Source of the DNA: Methylomarinum sp. Ch1-1
GTDB taxonomy: Bacteria > Pseudomonadota > Gammaproteobacteria > Methylococcales > Methylomonadaceae
Direction of reading: 5' to 3'
Assembly (NCBI RefSeq): GCF_030717995.2
Contig: NZ_CP157743.1
Span: 496,001 to 560,000 of the forward strand
DNA length: 64,000 nucleotides
Shown here piece by piece: positions 3,737-12,487 of the stretch; the first letter of the stretch is position 1, and each line of letters begins with the position of its first letter. The position numbers and the translations under genes are program-made. Below the pieces are notes generated by a model. That model was not told the DNA's origin. It saw nothing but the letters and a program-made list of their open reading frames with translations, and did no database searches.

Positions 3737-4828
3737 CTACGAGTTTTGAATGACGATATTGGGAAATTTACTGCTGTAATCCTTGCTTTTCAGCGCCAGC
3801 TTGGCGGCCATCTTGCGGGCGATGGAACGGTAAATCTCGGCCGCGCGTCCGTCCGGGTCGGCAACGACCGTCGGCCGACCGGAATCGGCGAACTTACGGA
3901 TGTTGATGTCCAACGGCAATGAACCCAGCAATTCGACATTGTTTTTCGCCGCCATCGCCTCGCCGCCGCCTTCACCGAAGATCGCCTCCTCATGACCGCA
4001 GTTGCTGCAGATGTGAATGCTCATGTTCTCCACCAACCCCAAGACCGGCACATTGACCTTGTTGAACATCGACAGGCCGCGCTGGGCATCGAGCAAGGCG
4101 ATGTCCTGAGGCGTCGTGACGATAATCGCGCCGCTGACCGGAATCTGCTGCGCCAGGGTCAACTGGATATCGCCGGTGCCGGGCGGCAAGTCGATGATCA
4201 AATAGTCGACATCGCTCCAATTCGTGTCCTTCAACAACTGCTGCAAGGCATTGGTCACCATCGGACCGCGCCAAATCATCGCCTGATCCTCATCGATCAG
4301 ATAACCGATGGAATTGGTTTGCACACCATAGGATATTTTCGGCAACATGGTCTTGCCGTCCTCACTGGCCGGATAACCGGACAAGCCCATCATCGTCGGC
4401 ACGCTGGGACCGTATATATCGGCATCGAGCAGGCCGACATTGGCCCCTTCCGCCGCCAGCGCCAAAGCCAAATTGACCGAAGTGGTCGACTTGCCGACCC
4501 CGCCTTTGCCGGAGGCGACGGCAATGATGTTTTTTACATTCGGCAACGGTTTTAACGATTGTTGTACCGCATGAGCAACGATATTGACGGTCACGTCGAC
4601 AGTCACCTTGCCCACCCCGTCCAGTTGCCGCAGTTTCTTCTCGACTGCCGTCTGTAACTCCGCCAAATAACTCTTGGCCGGATAACCCAGTTCCAAACTG
4701 ACGCGGATATCCGCCCCATCCACGGCGATGTTCTTGACCGCCTTGGATGACACCAGATCGGCGCCGACATTGGGATCGATAAAGGTTTTAAGCAGGTTTT
4801 CCACATCCGCTTTGGCAATTTCTGTCAT
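3737..4828 (-). CDS. apbC: Mrp/ApbC iron-sulfur cluster carrier ATPase
   Basis: This 363-residue protein has an N-terminal MIP18/DUF59 domain (about residues 1-85) followed by a deviant-Walker P-loop NTPase domain. Visible motifs are the P-loop SGKGGVGKST near residue 107, DADIYGPSVP, DLPPGTGD and the CSNCG cysteine pair near 273-276 used to bridge a [4Fe-4S] cluster between subunits. Length and order match Mrp/ApbC, a cytosolic dimer that transfers Fe-S clusters to apoproteins. It is divergent from metG, a common neighbour in proteobacteria, with 171 bp between the starts. Confidence 0.96.
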   Translation of the reverse strand: MTEIAKADVENLLKTFIDPNVGADLVSSKAVKNIAVDGADIRVSLELGYPAKSYLAELQTAVEKKLRQLDGVGKVTVDVTVNIVAHAVQQSLKPLPNVKNIIAVASGKGGVGKSTTSVNLALALAAEGANVGLLDADIYGPSVPTMMGLSGYPASEDGKTMLPKISYGVQTNSIGYLIDEDQAMIWRGPMVTNALQQLLKDTNWSDVDYLIIDLPPGTGDIQLTLAQQIPVSGAIIVTTPQDIALLDAQRGLSMFNKVNVPVLGLVENMSIHICSNCGHEEAIFGEGGGEAMAAKNNVELLGSLPLDINIRKFADSGRPTVVADPDGRAAEIYRSIARKMAAKLALKSKDYSSKFPNIVIQNS

Positions 4829-4999
4829 TTATGACTCCGGTTCTAAAGAAAAATAATAACCTAGTATTTATGTCAGGATATAATACCACTTTCAATAATA
4901 TCAACAACACAGCTGATTTTATCGTCCGACATCATGAAAATCATGCCATTATATGCAATAATGCTCGGTTCGTTTTTGTCATGCTAACCATTGAACTTC

Positions 5000-7018
5000 A
5001 TGTCTGATAGAAAAATTCTTGTTACCAGCGCCTTGCCTTATGCTAACGGCCCCATCCATTTGGGCCATTTGGTGGAGTATATTCAAACCGATATCTGGGT
5101 GCGCTTTCAGAAACAGCGCGGCAATCAATGTTATTACGTTTGCGCCGACGACACCCACGGCACTCCGATCATGCTGCGCGCCGATCGCGAAGGCATCACG
5201 CCGGAACAGCTGATCGCCGATGTCGAACAACAACATCGGGCCGATTTCGACGAATTCGGCGTCGACTTCGATAATTACCACAGCACGCATTCGCCGGAAA
5301 ACAAAGAATTATCGGCCTTGATCTATACCCGCTTGCGTGAAGGCGGCCATATCAGCCAACGAACCATCACTCAGGCCTACGATCCGGTCAAAAACATGTT
5401 TCTGCCGGACCGTTTCATCAAAGGCGAATGTCCGAAATGCGGCGCCCAGGATCAATACGGCGACAGCTGCGAGGCCTGCGGCGCCACATATGCGCCGACC
5501 GATCTGAAAAACGCCGTCTCGGTCATCTCGGGCGAGAAACCGATCGAAAAAGATTCCGAACATTATTTTTTCAATCTGGACGACTTTACCCAAATGCTGA
5601 AGGATTGGACCCAGGAAGGTCATCTGCAACATGAAGTCTATAACAAGATGGCGGAATGGCTGGAAAACGGCCTGCAGCAATGGGATATTTCCCGCGATGC
5701 GCCTTATTTCGGCTTCGAGATACCGGATGCGCCAGGCAAATATTTCTATGTCTGGCTGGATGCGCCGATCGGCTATATGGCCAGCTTCAAGCATCTGTGC
5801 GAAAAGCAAGGACTGAACTTCGACGAATTCTGGGGCGAAGACAGCGATGTCGAGCTCTATCATTTCATCGGCAAAGACATCATCTATTTCCACGCCCTGT
5901 TTTGGCCGGCGATGCTGAGCGGCGCCAAGTTCAGAACTCCGAGCGCGATTTTCGCCCACGGTTTCTTGACCGTCAACGGCGAAAAAATGTCCAAATCGCG
6001 CGGCACCTTCATCAAGGCCCGCACCTATCTCGACCACCTGAACCCGGAATATCTGCGCTACTACTTCGCCGCCAAACTCAGCGCCGGCGTCGAGGACATC
6101 GACCTGAGCTTCGCCGACTTTACCCAGCGCGTCAACTCCGACCTGGTCGGCAAAGTCGTCAATATCGCCAGCCGCTGCAGCGGCTTCATCAAGAAACGCT
6201 TCGACGGCAAACTGTCGTCTAACTGTGCGGAACCCGAATTATTCCAGCAATTTGTCGACGCCAACGACAAAATCGCCGAACTCTATGAAAAACGCGAATT
6301 CGGCAAGGCCATGCGCGAAATCATGGCATTGGCCGACAAAGCCAACCAATATATCGACGAGAAGAAGCCATGGATCATCGCCAAGGAAGAAGGTCGCGAC
6401 GCCGAATTGCATGAGATCTGTTCGATGGGCATCAACCTGTTTCGCCTGTTAGTGGCCTATCTGAAACCGGTGAATCCTAAGCTGGCCGCAAATGCCGAGA
6501 GCTTCCTGAATATCGAAGCGCAAGCCTGGCCATCGGAGACTCAGCCGCTGCTGGATCACGGCATCAACAAATTCAAGCCGCTGATGACCCGGGTCGAGGC
6601 GGACAAAATTGACGCCATCATCGAAGCCTCCAGGGAAAACCTGGAAAAAGAAGCGCCGGCGCAGCCCGTGAAAAAATGCGAACCCATCGCCGAGACCATC
6701 GAATTCGATGACTTCGCCAAAATCGACCTGCGCATCGCCAAGATTATCAAGGCCGAACACGTCAAGGGAGCCGACAAGTTGCTGCAATTGACCGTGGACA
6801 TCGGCGATGAAACGCGCAACATCTTCGCCGGCATCAAATCGGCCTATGCGCCGGAAGACCTGGAAGGCAAGCTGACCGTCGTCGTCGCCAACCTGAAGCC
6901 GCGCAAAATGCGTTTCGGCTTGTCCGAAGGCATGGTATTGGCTGCCGGCCCCGGCGGCGAGGATTTATGGATACTGAGTCCCGAACAAGGCGCGCAACCG
7001 GGCATGCGGGTTAAATAA
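5000..7018 (+). CDS. metG: Methionyl-tRNA synthetase
   Basis: Charges tRNA-Met with methionine in the cytosol. I take the ATG at 5000 ([17 protein letters not shown]); an in-frame TTG lies nine bases earlier, and no strong Shine-Dalgarno separates them. The protein has 672 residues, close to E. coli MetG. Visible are the HIGH-type motif PIHLGHL (residues 18-24), a four-cysteine zinc knuckle CPKCG...CEACG near 143-159, the KMSKS motif GEKMSKSRG near 333, an anticodon-binding helical region, and a C-terminal EMAP-II/OB-fold tRNA-binding domain from about residue 570 ([19 protein letters not shown]). All key elements are intact. Confidence 0.98.
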
Positions 7019-7123: not shown

Positions 7124-8800
7124 ATGTTTTGCTATCACTGTCAAGAAGCCAAAAAAAACAAGGTCTGTGATACAGCTGGAATTTGCGGCAAGAAAGCCGA
7201 TGTCTCCAGCCTACAGGATCTGCTGATGTTCAGCCTGAAAGGCCTGGCCTTTTACAGCTCCCGCGCGGAAGCATTTGATTTGGTCAGTGACAAAACCCAT
7301 CATTTCATGGCCAAGGCGCTGTTTTCGATGGTCACTAATGTTAACTTCGACCCGGCGGATTTCGTCAATCTGATCGACGTAGCAGTCAGACGCCGCAACT
7401 CCATCAGGAAAAAATTCCTCGCCGCCTATCAACTGAAGCATGGCGCGGAATTCGACGAGACGTTACCAGAAGAAGCCTCTTGGCAATATGACGAAGCTAG
7501 CGATAAAGACTTCATCGCCAAAGGCGAAACAGTCGGCGTCGAAAAAGACAAGGAAGGCCTGGACGAAGACGTCCATGCCTTGCAGGAATGCCTGCTCTAT
7601 GCCGTCAAAGGGCTAGGCTCGCTGGCCGTACACGCGCTGGAAATGGGCGTCGAGGAAACCGAACAATACCGCTTCATGCAGCAAGCGCTGGACTTCACAC
7701 TGTCCAAGAACAATACGCAGGATGAAGTCCTGAACATGCTGCTGCGTTGTGGCGAACTCGGTCTTGCGGCGATGGGCCGACTGAACCAAGCCAACAGCGA
7801 CAAATTCGGCGAGCCTGAACCGACCACCGTTTACCTGGACACCTGGGATAGACCCGGCATACTGGTCAGCGGCCACGACCTGCACGATATCGAAGACTTG
7901 TTGGCACAGACGGCCGGCACCGGTGTCGATGTTTACACCCACGACGAAGCGATCGCGGCCCATGCCTATCCGGCGCTGAAGAAGTATTTCAATCTAGTCG
8001 CCAACTACGGCGGCGCCTGGCAAGACCAAAAAACCCAGTTTCCTAAATTCAACGGCCCGGTGCTGGTCACCACCAACAGCATCCAACAACCGAAAAAAAC
8101 CTACCAGGAAAAACTGTTCAGCACCGGCATGGTCGGCTGGCCCGACGTGCCCCATATCGAGGACCGCAAACCTGGACAGCGCAAGAACTTCAGCGCGATC
8201 ATCGAATTGGCCAAACAATGCGAGCCGCCCGAGCCGCTGACCGACGGCGCGACCACGACAGGTTATGGCTTACAAGCCCTGACCGCGCTCAGCGATCAAA
8301 TCGCTACGGCGATCGAAGCGAATAAAATCAAACGCATCATCGTGCTGGCCGGTTGCGACGGCCGTCATAAAGAACGCCGTTACTACACCGAGCTGGCCGA
8401 GGCTTTGCCGGAGGACGCCCTGGTGATCACCTCGGGCGACACCAAATACCGCTTTCAGCACATGGACTTCGGCATGATCGATGACATTCCGCGACTGCTC
8501 GACGCCGGACAGATCAACAACTTTCACGGCATCATCGCTTTCCTGCAAACATTGCAACAAAAAATGGGTCTCAGCGAATTGCGTCAATTGCCGGTCTCCT
8601 TCGACATCGCCTGGTACGAACAGACGACCATTCTGATGATGTTGGCGCTGTTTGCGTTGGATTTCAAACACATGCGCGTCGGCCCGACGCTGCCGCCGTT
8701 CTTCACCGCTAACATCCTGGACTTGCTCGATCGGCGCTATGGCCTGAAAGGCATCGACACGCCCGAAAACGATGTCGCCGCGATGATGGCCGGAGAATAA
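7124..8800 (+). CDS. Hybrid-cluster-protein homologue lacking hybrid-cluster ligands
   Basis: This 558-residue protein aligns along its whole length with Hcp (hydroxylamine reductase / NO-stress protein). The N-terminal cubane-binding motif is intact with class I spacing: C3-x2-C6-x8-C15-x5-C21. Hybrid-cluster positions are mostly changed. The His of [12 protein letters not shown] and the Glu of THDEA remain, as do the persulfide-type Cys in LAGCDG and the Glu of AWYEQ. The expected Cys of TxNC is Ser (TTNSIQQP), the Cys before KYRF is Asp (SGDTKYRF), the Cys of AGQC is Ile (AGQINN), and the conserved Lys after WYEQ is Thr. A normal 4Fe-2O-2S cluster therefore seems unlikely; it may carry only the cubane or a different site. 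An RnfB-like ferredoxin follows 8 bp downstream and is a plausible electron donor. Database pipelines would call it hcp. Confidence 0.85.
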
Positions 8801-8808
8801 TTAACACG

Positions 8809-9375
8809 ATGAACAGCCGGTCTTTAGCCGAAAAAATCGACGCCCTGCTGCCGCAAACCCAATGCACAAAATGCGGCTATGCCGGCTGCAGGCCCTATGC
8901 GGAAGCGATCAGCACAGGAGCGGCGGACATCAACCAATGCCCGCCGGGCGGCGAGGCCGGCATCCGCAAACTGGCCGAATTGCTGAGCGTCAAACCGAAA
9001 CCGCTCAATCCCGATTATGGCAGCGAACAACCCCGCAAAGTCGCATTCATCATCGAACAAGACTGCATCGGTTGCACCAAATGCCTGCCGCCATGCCCTG
9101 TCGACGCCATCCTGGGCGCCAACAAACACATGCATACCGTGATCGAAACGGAATGCACCGGCTGCGAACTCTGCATCGCGCCTTGCCCGGTCAATTGCAT
9201 CATCATGCAGGACCCGGTCCAGCCATTTACCTGGAACCATCAAGCCGCGGACCACGCCCGTAAACGCCATCAGGCCAAACAACGGCGCCTGGAAAAACAG
9301 CAACAGGAAAAAGCCGAACGCCTGAAAAAACAAAAGCAGATGCTGGCTAAACTAAAGGCCAAAAAAAATACCTGA
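8809..9375 (+). CDS. RnfB/RsxB-like ferredoxin without membrane anchor
   Basis: This 188-residue protein starts with the RnfB-type Fe-S domain (CTKCGYAGC at residues 19-27, then CPPGG), followed by two ferredoxin [4Fe-4S] motifs, [12 protein letters not shown] and [12 protein letters not shown] (about 86-128). The tail from 150 is highly charged, Lys/Gln-rich and probably helical. RnfB proteins pass electrons within the Rnf/Rsx membrane complex, but the usual N-terminal hydrophobic helix is missing and no other rnf gene is nearby. Only 8 bp separate it from the hcp-like gene, so the two are almost certainly co-transcribed and this is probably its dedicated soluble electron carrier (inference). 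Confidence 0.85.
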
Positions 9376-9425: not shown

Positions 9426-9502
9426 GCGCCCGTAGCTCAGCTGGATAGAGCGCAGCCCTCCGGAGGCTGAGGTCAGAGGTTCGAATCCTCTCGGGCGCGC
9501 CA
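9426..9502 (+). tRNA. tRNA-Arg (anticodon CCG)
   Basis: A 77-nt cloverleaf including an encoded CCA. The acceptor stem is GCGCCCG (9426-9432) with CGGGCGC (9492-9498), discriminator G and CCA at 9500-9502. The anticodon arm is CAGCC-CTCCGGA-GGCTG, reading CCG, and the T arm is AGAGG-TTCGAAT-CCTCT. It decodes CGG. The mobile-element nest begins about 50 bp downstream, so this tRNA may mark an insertion-prone site, although no integrase or att duplication is seen. Confidence 0.97.
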
Positions 9503-9554
9503 TTTCGACATCACTCCCCAAACAGCCATTTTTGCTCTGCGCCCTATCCGAAAA

Positions 9555-9947
9555 ATGAAAAAGGGGACAGATTTATTTTCCATGTTCTTAAGTTTCTTTT
9601 CGCGGCCTTCCCCGCCCCCTGCTCTCGATCCTCTTTCCAATGATCTTTTCAATCTGATCGCTAAAACGATTAGTGCCGGTAAGCTGCCCTCGTTGAACTG
9701 CCTCATGGATGAGTGTCCATTCCCCTTCCGGTATCGCTCCATAAACAAACTCAGTGTAACGTGAAGTTCGTTCGGCTTCAGTATTTCCCAACGCGTTGCA
9801 ACAAGGGTCGATGTCTAACCAATCAAATTCCCTGTTTCGTCCTGCATGGCGCTGAAAACTAGACCATGGATAAGCCGCCGGATCATCTGCTATCCCAGCT
9901 CGAACAGGATTTAACTCCACATAACGGCAACAGGCCAACAAGAGCGA
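9555..9947 (-). pseudogene. Y1 (RAYT-type) transposase remnant, C-terminal half only
   Basis: The frame ends at 9588-9590 and covers about 118 residues homologous to the C-terminal half of the full copy at 9977-12365, including the catalytic-tyrosine region CCRYVELNPVRAG and the basic tail GKRIESRGRGRPRKET. The N-terminal half is lost; the break follows the bases CCAACAAG at about 9941. Its 3' flank carries the element end AAAAAGGGGACAGATTTATT. This copy is not interrupted by the IS66-type element and therefore preserves the empty target site (CCCTCGTTGAACTGCC near 9691-9706). Confidence 0.85.
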
Positions 9948-10102
9948 AAAAAGGGGACCGAAAAAAGGGGACAGATTTATTTTCCATGTTCTTCAGTTTC
10001 TTTTCGCGGCCTTCCCCGCCCCCTGTTCTCGATCCTCTTTCCAATGATCTTTTCAATCTGATCGCTAAAATGATTAGTGCCGGTAAGCTGCCCTCGTTGA
10101 AC

Positions 10103-11772
10103 GTAAGTATTCACACACCCTAGCTGAAAATACAAAATAATTGACAAACCGACACAAGAACATTGTACAAATCCATTAAGAAGCCTTAGTATTTATCCCA
10201 TGCAACTCAGTAACCAGGACCTAAGCCAAATCGATGAAGACGAGCTTCTCAATTTACCGGAAGAGGAATTACGTTACCTATCGATTAAGTTACTTAACGA
10301 CCTAAAAGAAGCGCGTGAGCGCTTAAGCCAAAATTCGCGCAACAGCTCTCGTCCACCTAGCAGCGAAGCGCCTTGGGATAAAGCAGCTACAGATAATACA
10401 AACGATCAAGAACAAACGGAGATCGATAAGTCTGCTGAAACGGAAGACACCGTCACCCCCCCGTCGCCTTCTAAAAAAGATCAGCAACAGTCCGCTGATC
10501 CTAACAATGAACATCAAGAACCCCGCAAACCCGGCAAACAACCAGGCGCACAAGGCTTTGGCCGAACACAAAAGCTAGCCATTACCCACTATCAAGATCA
10601 TTACCCTGAAATATGTGCCTGCTGCCATCAAACATTAGAGCCGCGTCATGCTATCGCCTATGCCGCGTATGAAACAATCAATGTCGAATGGGGCGATGTT
10701 GAGCATCCAGGCATTCTAGTCACCCATACCAAGCACACTCTCTATGAAGTAGTGTGCGCCAATGGACATATCACGCGCAAAGAAGTCAGTCGTAGCAGTC
10801 ATGCTCAATTGCCGGGTATTAGCCGAACTGAATGGCGTTTAGTGGGGCCTGGACTGGCAGCAATGATTGTTTGTCTTGCCTACCGTATGCGCCTATCGCG
10901 TGAGCGTATTCAGGAATTTTATATGACTGGTTAGGTATTAAATTAAGTGTTGGCACCATCAATAATACCCTGCATGAAGTGGCGCAGCGGCTATGCCGCT
11001 TGAAGATGAGTTTGCACAAGAAATCATTAACAGCGAATTGCTGCATGTAGACGAAACCTCCTGGATGGAGCACACGACTTTTCTTTGGTTATGGGTGTTC
11101 AGTACGAATCGCGTCACAGCCTATTGGATTGCTACGCGTAGCGCTGAATTATTGGAAAATCTTTAGGCGACGACTTTAATGGTTGGTTAATGAGCGATGG
11201 CTACACGGTTTATCGCAAATATCTGAGTCGGTTACGTTGCTGGGCTCATCTTCTGCGTAAAGCGAAAGGGCTCAATGAAAGCTTAAACAGAGACGCCCAG
11301 CTTTTTGGTCAACAAACGCACGATTTACTGGCTGTGTTGATAGGTGCGGTACGCAAAGCGCGAATAACACCACCTGATACGCCACTTTCTGAAACTTATC
11401 GCCTGCAATTACTGCTCTATCAGCAGATGTGTATACAAATGAAAACCCATGAACATAAGAAAACAGCAGCATTAGCCACGGAAATGCTAAATGACTGGAC
11501 AGCTATTTTTCAAGTTCTGGATCAACCGCATCAGCCCTTAACGAATAATGAAGCGGAGCGAGCGTTGCGCCACTGGGTTATTTTACGCGGCATTTGCTAT
11601 GGCACGCGCTCGGAAAATGGGACGCGTGTGTTCGCTATTTTAATCAGCGTCATTGAAACCTGCCGCAAAAGAAATCAGTCACCGTGGATTTATTTGGCAC
11701 AAGTGATCGCAAGTCAGCGGTCAGGCTTGCCGGTACCGGCCTTGCCAATTGTTAGGGTGTCTGAATAATTAC
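10103..11772 (+). mobile_element. IS66-type element (ISBst12-like, transposase only), 1,670 bp
   Basis: The ends are imperfect inverted repeats: GTAAGTATTCACACACCCTA on the left, and GTAATTATTCAGACACCCTA on the right read from the minus strand. It is flanked by an exact 8-bp target duplication, CGTTGAAC, at 10095-10102 and 11773-11780; 8 bp is the IS66 family norm. Only a TnpC-like transposase is present, with no accessory tnpA/tnpB, as in the ISBst12 subgroup. The uninterrupted target survives in the neighbouring RAYT remnant near 9695. Confidence 0.9.
10200..11768 (+). pseudogene. IS66-family transposase with multiple frameshifts
   Basis: The N-terminal part (10200-10934) shows a leucine-rich coiled start, the SQNSRNSSRPPSS motif typical of IS66 transposases, an acidic linker, and a zinc-finger-like CACC...CANG region. 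Homology then moves to a second frame (DWLGIKLSVGTINNTLHEV from 10925), to a third (ELLHVDETSW, with a catalytic Asp, near 11032), and back to the first from about 11165 (DDFNGWLMSDGYTVY, WAHLLRKAKG, and NNEAERALRHWVILR with the catalytic Glu). At least three frame changes separate conserved blocks, so the enzyme is dead despite intact ends. Confidence 0.88.
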
Positions 11773-12487
11773 CGTTGAACTGCCTCATGGATGAGCGCCC
11801 ATTCCCCTTCCGGTATCGCTCCATAAACAAACTCAGTGTAACGTGAAGTTCGTTCGGCTTCAGTGTTTCCCAACGCGTTGTAACAAGGATCGATGTCTAA
11901 CCAATCAAATTCCCTGTTTCGTCCTGCATGGCGCTGAAAACTAGACCATGGATAAGCCGCCGGATCATCTGCCATCCCAGCTCGAACAGGATTTAACTCC
12001 ACATAACGGCAACAGGCCAACAAGTATGTTTCTGTTTCGATCGGACTGGAACGATACCGCCCCTCCCAAAGCGTACCCGACCTTGACTCCTGACGATTCA
12101 CAAACCGGGTCTGTCTTCCAGCCAAACGTTTCATCAGTTGCCCCAAACCAGCAACTTCTTCCCCTGGCTGCAAAATCAAGTGCACATGATTAGTCATCAA
12201 ACAGAAGCCATAGACCTTGACATCATAGAAATCCTTGAACTCCTTTAAAGTATCGAGGTAGTAAAGAAAATCGGCCTCTTCCGCAAACACAACTTGTCTA
12301 TTGTGCCCTCGTTGGACCACATGATGGGGATAGTTCGCAAGTACTATTCGTCCGAGTCTTGGCATTCTCTTTAGGGTCTATTCAGAGAGTTCCAGAGAAG
12401 AATAATACTCTATCGCTAAAGTGTCAAAAAATAAATCTGTCCCCTTTTTCCTTTTTCTCACAAATACTCAAATCGTTTTCCGTGACA

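Follow-up and report, generated by a model that had tools for sequence, protein, structure and literature searches.

A Methylococcales clade of class I Hcp homologues in which the hybrid-cluster thiolates are replaced

Described relatives and the Hcp homologue of Methylomarinum

Hcps are defined by their cluster, in which one iron is held by Cys459, His244, and Glu268 (as given in PMC9311411) and another, as described for the Hcp of M. thermolithotrophicus, by the persulfide Cys402 and Glu490 (PMC10210160). According to the latter source, the cubane motif of class II Hcps is four residues longer than that of class I. A precedent for ligand change within the superfamily is CooS-V, a deviant Carboxydothermus CODH whose changed cluster is attributed mainly to a single exchanged CODH ligand (Cys to Glu), a change that goes with an altered activity; Cys338 and Cys480 hold the two irons of its [2Fe-2S] subsite (PMC9311411).

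For methanotrophs, the accounts of Hcp in PMC6977074 and PMC5563964 describe the canonical Hcp-Hcr pair. The pair of Methylobacter tundripaludum acts in NO reduction and hypoxia (PMC6977074), and for the Hcp of Crenothrix D3 six cluster residues were checked by the authors and found present (PMC5563964). In a study of Methyloprofundus, hcp was counted as a hydroxylamine reductase and was present in all four tabulated genomes, with the high transcription of one of the two hcp homologues of strain INp10 taken as a sign of hydroxylamine (PMC8788690). Searches of the main texts of the open-access literature turned up no account of Hcps that lack the cluster cysteines.

The DNA analysed here (the window) is a stretch of 64,000 nucleotides from Methylomarinum sp. 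Ch1-1 (contig NZ_CP157743.1, positions 496,001 to 560,000). It contains an intact open reading frame (7,124–8,800, + strand) for a 558 aa homologue of class I Hcp in which the hybrid-cluster thiolates are replaced, referred to below as the variant. The product matched TIGR01703 (hydroxylamine reductase, NCBIfam) over its full length (561.1 bits, above the cut-off of 360.8) and Pfam PF03063 (Prismane; 391.7 bits, cut-off 27). An AF2 model based on a 58-row alignment (pLDDT 91.6; confidence lowest over residues 1–20, where the cubane loop is modelled without its metal) aligned in Foldseek with D. vulgaris Hcp (1e2u) at a TM of 0.95, an rmsd of 1.7, and 42% identity, which predicts the Hcp fold. 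The short cubane motif C-x2-C-x8-C-x5-C (Cys3, 6, 15, and 21; 7,130–7,186, +) places the variant in class I.

The second Hcp of the same genome is of class II, the type described from methanotrophs. It belongs to the same Pfam family and shares 37% identity with the variant, but has the longer cubane motif C-x2-C-x11-C-x6-C and all of the ligands, and an Hcr-type flavoprotein gene adjoins it (locus L002, 433–3,925), whereas no Hcr gene lies beside the variant, whose neighbours are a presumed metG and a ferredoxin gene. This hcp-hcr pair comes with a divergent gene for a regulator of the Crp/FNR type (domains cNMP_binding and HTH_Crp_2).

Ligand positions and distribution of the variant clade

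Positions are given in the numbering of D. vulgaris Hcp (Dv) or, for residues of the window, in that of the variant's product. A full-length phmmer alignment with D. vulgaris Hcp (513 bits), gapless at every ligand position, paired Dv H244, E268, C312, C406, C434, C459, E494, and K496 with H, E, S, C, D, I, E, and T, and in place of the seven cluster ligands of Hcp (H, E, C, C, C, C, E) the window thus has H, E, S, C, D, I, E. The first-pass annotation, made from the letters of the window, had described three of the four cluster cysteines as replaced by Ser, Asp, and Ile, with the His, both Glu, and the N-terminal cubane cysteines present, and this description was exact.

For comparison, 52 rows were sorted as variant, of which 12 partial copies (<540 aa) and a contig-end fragment with Cys312 (L182) were omitted, leaving 39 that include one copy without its N-terminus (L164). 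The canonical set of 71 rows was reduced to 66 of at least 530 aa and, together with D. vulgaris Hcp, amounted to 67 sequences. All eight residues were kept in 67/67 canonical sequences, while the cysteines at 312, 434, and 459 were absent from 39/39 variants. Sequencing or assembly error, raised as a possible undoing by the first-pass annotation, is ruled out by these 39 distinct sequences of at least 540 aa.

The variants share with class I Hcps (D. vulgaris 1e2u and M. thermolithotrophicus 8cnr) their length, fold, and cubane spacing, and the old ligand positions differ widely in how strictly they are kept (all coordinates on the + strand; changes within the clade were counted on a tree made without the six varying columns). 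Glu275 (Dv Glu268; 7,946–7,948) and Glu499 (Dv Glu494; 8,618–8,620) are Glu in 39/39. Ser319, which replaces Dv Cys312 (8,078–8,080), is Ser in 38 and Asn in one, and Asp439, which replaces Dv Cys434 (8,438–8,440), is Asp in 33 and Glu in six, each position having changed once on the tree. His251 (Dv His244; 7,874–7,876) is mostly kept (35 His, two Ser, one Gln, and one Asn; at least four changes). Unlike in class I Hcps, the persulfide-site Cys411 (Dv Cys406; 8,354–8,356) is Cys in 22, Thr in nine, Tyr in four, Ala in three, and Gly in one (at least seven changes); Ile464, which replaces Dv Cys459 (8,513–8,515), stands in a column of 18 Ser, 14 Thr, two Asn, two Ala, and one each of Gly, Val, and Ile (eight changes); and Thr501 (Dv Lys496; 8,624–8,626) in one of 19 Lys, 18 Gln, one His, and one Thr (five changes). 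Ile464 and Thr501 are private to the window among the 39 variants. Two points of the first-pass annotation, the exchange of Lys for Thr and the retention of the persulfide-site Cys, accordingly describe the window correctly but do not extend to the clade.

Estimated site rates were zero at 275 and 499, as for ~20% of all sites, and lay at the 21st percentile for 319, the 25th for 439, the 42nd for 251, the 48th for 501, the 60th for 464, and the 65th for 411. Based on these rates and the change counts, part of the old site has been strictly kept in an oxygen-rich form and part has been released. Columns 459 and 496 changed in the same direction in two to three of only three independent pairs. 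Outside the cubane motif no column reached 90% Cys among the 39 variants of at least 540 aa, so that no other cysteines, as the first-pass annotation had allowed for, were found to take the place of the lost ligands; the highest were 209 (74%), 366 (64%; canonical Hcps, 56%), and 411 (56%). All four cubane cysteines are present in 38/39 variants, the exception being L164. The cubane region is invariant at residues 1–12 across 38 alignment rows and carries clade-specific residues (e.g., K10, D16, and K24). By descent and predicted fold the variant is a member of the Hcp family, but by its sequence at the ligands that define the family it is no hybrid cluster protein.

In a tree of 106 sequences (rows cut at 575 aa; quick search without bootstrap), the 39 variants, all of at least 540 aa and from Methylococcales, formed one side of a single branch (SH-aLRT, 100) with a stem of 0.45 changes per column, and a clade sharing the substitutions, which the first-pass annotation had proposed to look for, does exist and has a single origin. 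The nearest relative is a canonical class I Hcp with all ligands from another Methylococcales genome (support, 95). This sequence (L112, 4,258–5,937, genome G035) has 48–49% identity to the window's variant, and G035 also has a variant copy at a different place in its genome, which makes the two a natural control pair. The best 80 of 476 relatives comprised 34 variants and 46 canonical sequences, the latter from several phyla. Record titles for the 34 variants named Methylococcales, Methylococcaceae, Methylobacter, Methyloprofundus, and methanotrophic symbionts of mussels, a snail, and sponges; two MAGs bore the label Methylomonas and one simply that of Gammaproteobacteria.

Within the family sample, the variant occurred in 35/151 genomes and six genus groups. 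Beyond the family, the order sample contained 11 genomes of other families with matches, the best of which (475–520 bits) lay in the canonical range by score alone, compared to 910–1019 bits for variants. In the class sample, 16/369 genomes had a match and, besides the window's variant, all copies with readable ligand columns were canonical (the copy of G463 is split in two, each part canonical as far as it could be read, and G352 gave only a 35-residue piece). In the phylum sample, 38/398 genomes had a match, 37 of them besides that of the window; the ligands were read in 29 of these 37 and were canonical throughout (one, L229, is a fragment without column 244). Independent losses of the ligands may have occurred elsewhere.

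A canonical-type copy, defined as a full or nearly full match at 36–49% identity whose ligands were read in part and were canonical wherever read, was also found in 17/35 variant genomes and in 18/116 others (odds ratio, 5.1; p = 0.00015, uncorrected for kinship), and the variant as a replacement of true Hcp was rejected since the two are not exclusive. No full-length canonical-type copy was found in the other 18/35 variant genomes, several of which are incomplete assemblies and one of which (G100) has an additional 92-residue piece; in two genomes listed as 100% complete (G043 and G121) the variant is the sole Prismane-family match. Because a full-length true Hcp was not found in these 18 genomes, the annotation ‘hydroxylamine reductase’, which databases assign to the variants by default, is unsafe in such genomes, and entries for hcp or hydroxylamine reductase in these methanotrophs, mussel symbionts included, are unsafe evidence of NO or hydroxylamine detoxification.

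Candidate contents of the former cluster site

The lost cluster ligands and the long stem branch might be read as the marks of a decaying paralogue heading for loss, which is very improbable given the selection on the gene. By a simple counting method, dN/dS was 0.054–0.212 for the variant (nine close pairs), and 0.052–0.090 for canonical hcp (three pairs). In the comparison of the window with G043, the ferredoxin gave 0.115 and metG 0.060. None of the 39 variant copies of at least 540 aa has an inner stop, the variant spans six genus groups, and positions 312 and 434 show just one change each. The earlier view of a full-length and healthy gene fits these values, and its preference for a new role over decay proved the better reading, supported by purifying selection, a real clade, and the lack of substitute cysteines. 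Judging from these sequence patterns, the variant probably still functions, with a metal centre of another kind: on one Methylococcales branch a class I Hcp would have lost its hybrid-cluster thiolates and been kept for a new use.

What the pocket contains is less certain. The tentatively preferred candidate is that the hybrid cluster of this class I Hcp derivative has been replaced by a small oxygen-ligated metal centre that is fed by the cubane. The canonical Fe-S-O cluster presumably cannot be assembled in the variant, and the buried site of Ser319, Asp/Glu439, Glu275, Glu499, and usually His251 could instead hold the centre, most likely as one or two non-haem irons. Combined with the two invariant Glu, the Ser and Asp/Glu would surround an oxygen-rich pocket in which the path of electrons from the cubane ends. 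The two fixed swaps appear to land on the counterparts of the cysteines that hold the [2Fe-2S] subsite of CooS-V (PMC9311411), if Cys338 and Cys480 are equated with Dv Cys312 and Cys434 by motif order, via PMC10502027. Like the variant, CooS-V is a superfamily member with a changed ligand, but its cluster remains of the Fe/S/O type and includes cysteines and a persulfide, as described in PMC9311411, and its scaffold is that of a CODH. Two features temper the preferred candidate. Since His251 is replaced in 4/39, the metal would have to be bound mostly by oxygen ligands, which is unusual for redox iron, and the invariant Glu275 and Glu499 may be structural because a rate of zero occurs at ~20% of sites and both residues are invariant in canonical Hcps too.

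The same conservation pattern bears on a pseudo-enzyme with an empty pocket, in which the cubane alone would serve an electron carrier, a redox or NO/O2 sensor, or a protein-binding partner. The variation at columns 406, 459, 496, and 244 (seven, eight, five, and four changes) is in keeping with it, and the near-frozen cubane region with its clade-specific K10, D16, and K24 fits a docking surface. An empty pocket should let all of its positions drift, however, and two-tier conservation (268 and 494 fixed, one change at 312 and at 434, four to eight at the others) speaks against it, with Ser319, Asp/Glu439, Glu275, and Glu499 fixed in variants whose identity to the window falls as low as 55%. 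The variant cannot generally act as a partner of Hcp, since 18/35 variant genomes yielded no full-length true Hcp. Overall, an empty pocket is rated unlikely, behind the oxygen-ligated site and ahead of a modified Fe-S-O cluster. The last would be a hybrid-type cluster with Ser and Asp ligands, in an enzyme that would still reduce hydroxylamine or NO, though slowly. Ser and Asp can stand in for Cys as Fe-S ligands in some proteins, and the kept E268 and E494, the H244 of 35/39 variants, the persulfide Cys of 22/39, and the score on the hydroxylamine reductase model would all suit such a cluster. Against it, the persulfide position is occupied by Thr, Tyr, Ala, or Gly in 17/39 variants, which are thus left without any of the four cluster cysteines, and some variants have Ala, Gly, Val, or Ile at 459, residues unable to ligate, which makes a modified cluster improbable.

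For the preferred oxygen-ligated centre, a function can be sketched. Electrons would reach it through the cubane from a general soluble ferredoxin, and it would reduce a small oxidant such as an N-oxide, a peroxide, or O2, the choice among these being a guess. The wider proposal, in which a redox enzyme of aerobic methanotrophs, built on the Hcp/CODH scaffold, exchanged a sulfur-ligated four-iron cluster for a cubane-wired O/N-ligated site (Ser, Asp/Glu, Glu, Glu, and usually His), is put forward a shade more cautiously still. If true, such a site would represent a type of metalloenzyme not found described for the Hcp/CODH superfamily in the literature searched. In any case, the variants form a natural set of sequences that have lost cluster ligands but whose fold and point of electron entry are kept under selection, and offer a direct test of the scaffold's abilities without the cluster.

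A nitrogen role by way of HAO-type cytochromes was also considered. PF13447 matched in 9/35 variant genomes (six strong matches, and three weak and partial) compared to 26/116 others (Fisher p = 0.66), and hydroxylamine detoxification in place of HAO was rejected for this lack of a co-occurrence signal.

The RnfB-like ferredoxin and the surrounding genes

Downstream of the variant, after a gap of 8 bp, lies an intact open reading frame for a 188 aa soluble ferredoxin (8,809–9,375, +). Like RsxB/RnfB (NF003475 and NF005415), it has an FeS domain (PF04060) and two 4Fe-4S motifs (PF14697, a 4Fe-4S dicluster), and it scored 210.2 bits on NF003475 (cut-off 203). It differs from them in falling under the cut-off of NF005415 (262.9 bits compared to 281), in its position beside metG and the variant, and in the absence of the N-terminal membrane segment. 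The matches start at profile position 33 in TIGR01944 and 35 in NF003475, which bears out the earlier remark that the protein has no membrane helix.

The first-pass annotation had further taken this ferredoxin for a dedicated partner and suggested that the same neighbour be sought across the clade, and neither idea held. Of 41 distinct variant loci, two stop at a contig edge and 39 were counted by hand; the ferredoxin gene directly follows the variant in 16 of these 39 and lies ~1.7 kb away in two more, and the neighbourhood is neither conserved nor specific. The ferredoxin is present in 144/151 family genomes. Among the 30 best-scoring ferredoxin loci, the variant adjoins in 10, and of the 20 without it, metG adjoins in 13, while two of the other seven have <800 bp of upstream sequence. 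Given this prevalence, and the presence of metG beside it also where the variant is missing, the ferredoxin is a general gene of the family, and the simplest history is that the variant arrived within an old metG-ferredoxin pair. Gene neighbourhood does not establish the ferredoxin as the variant's electron donor. As the electron donor of class I Hcps is given as unknown in PMC10210160, the RnfB-like protein may still supply the electrons.

In 15 of 25 chosen loci, the gene after the variant belongs to a cluster of UPF0114-type membrane proteins (one member searched); this neighbourhood is stable in Methyloprofundus-type loci (L043, 7,720–8,256, and 14 others). A glutaredoxin-like gene occurs in nine of the chosen loci (one member searched).

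Upstream of the variant in the window are two genes that we take, by the look of their sequences, to be metG (4,991–7,018, +) and mrp (3,737–4,828, −). A scan for promoter-like sites (three, with 1.4 expected) and terminator-like sites (four, with 4.8 expected) gave no useful signal. The ferredoxin gene is followed by a tRNA-Arg (9,426–9,502, +) and then by what appear to be transposase genes, whose family names are our own presumptive assignments. A transposase of the REP-associated type is represented in 9,545–9,980 and 11,769–12,365 by a truncated copy (9,588–9,941, −) and a full copy (11,769–12,365, −), with a short repeat containing GGGGACAGATTTATTTTCC close to the truncated one. Between them (10,200–11,768), two open reading frames of 244 and 192 aa (+) are apparent pieces of a single transposase, presumably of the IS66 type.
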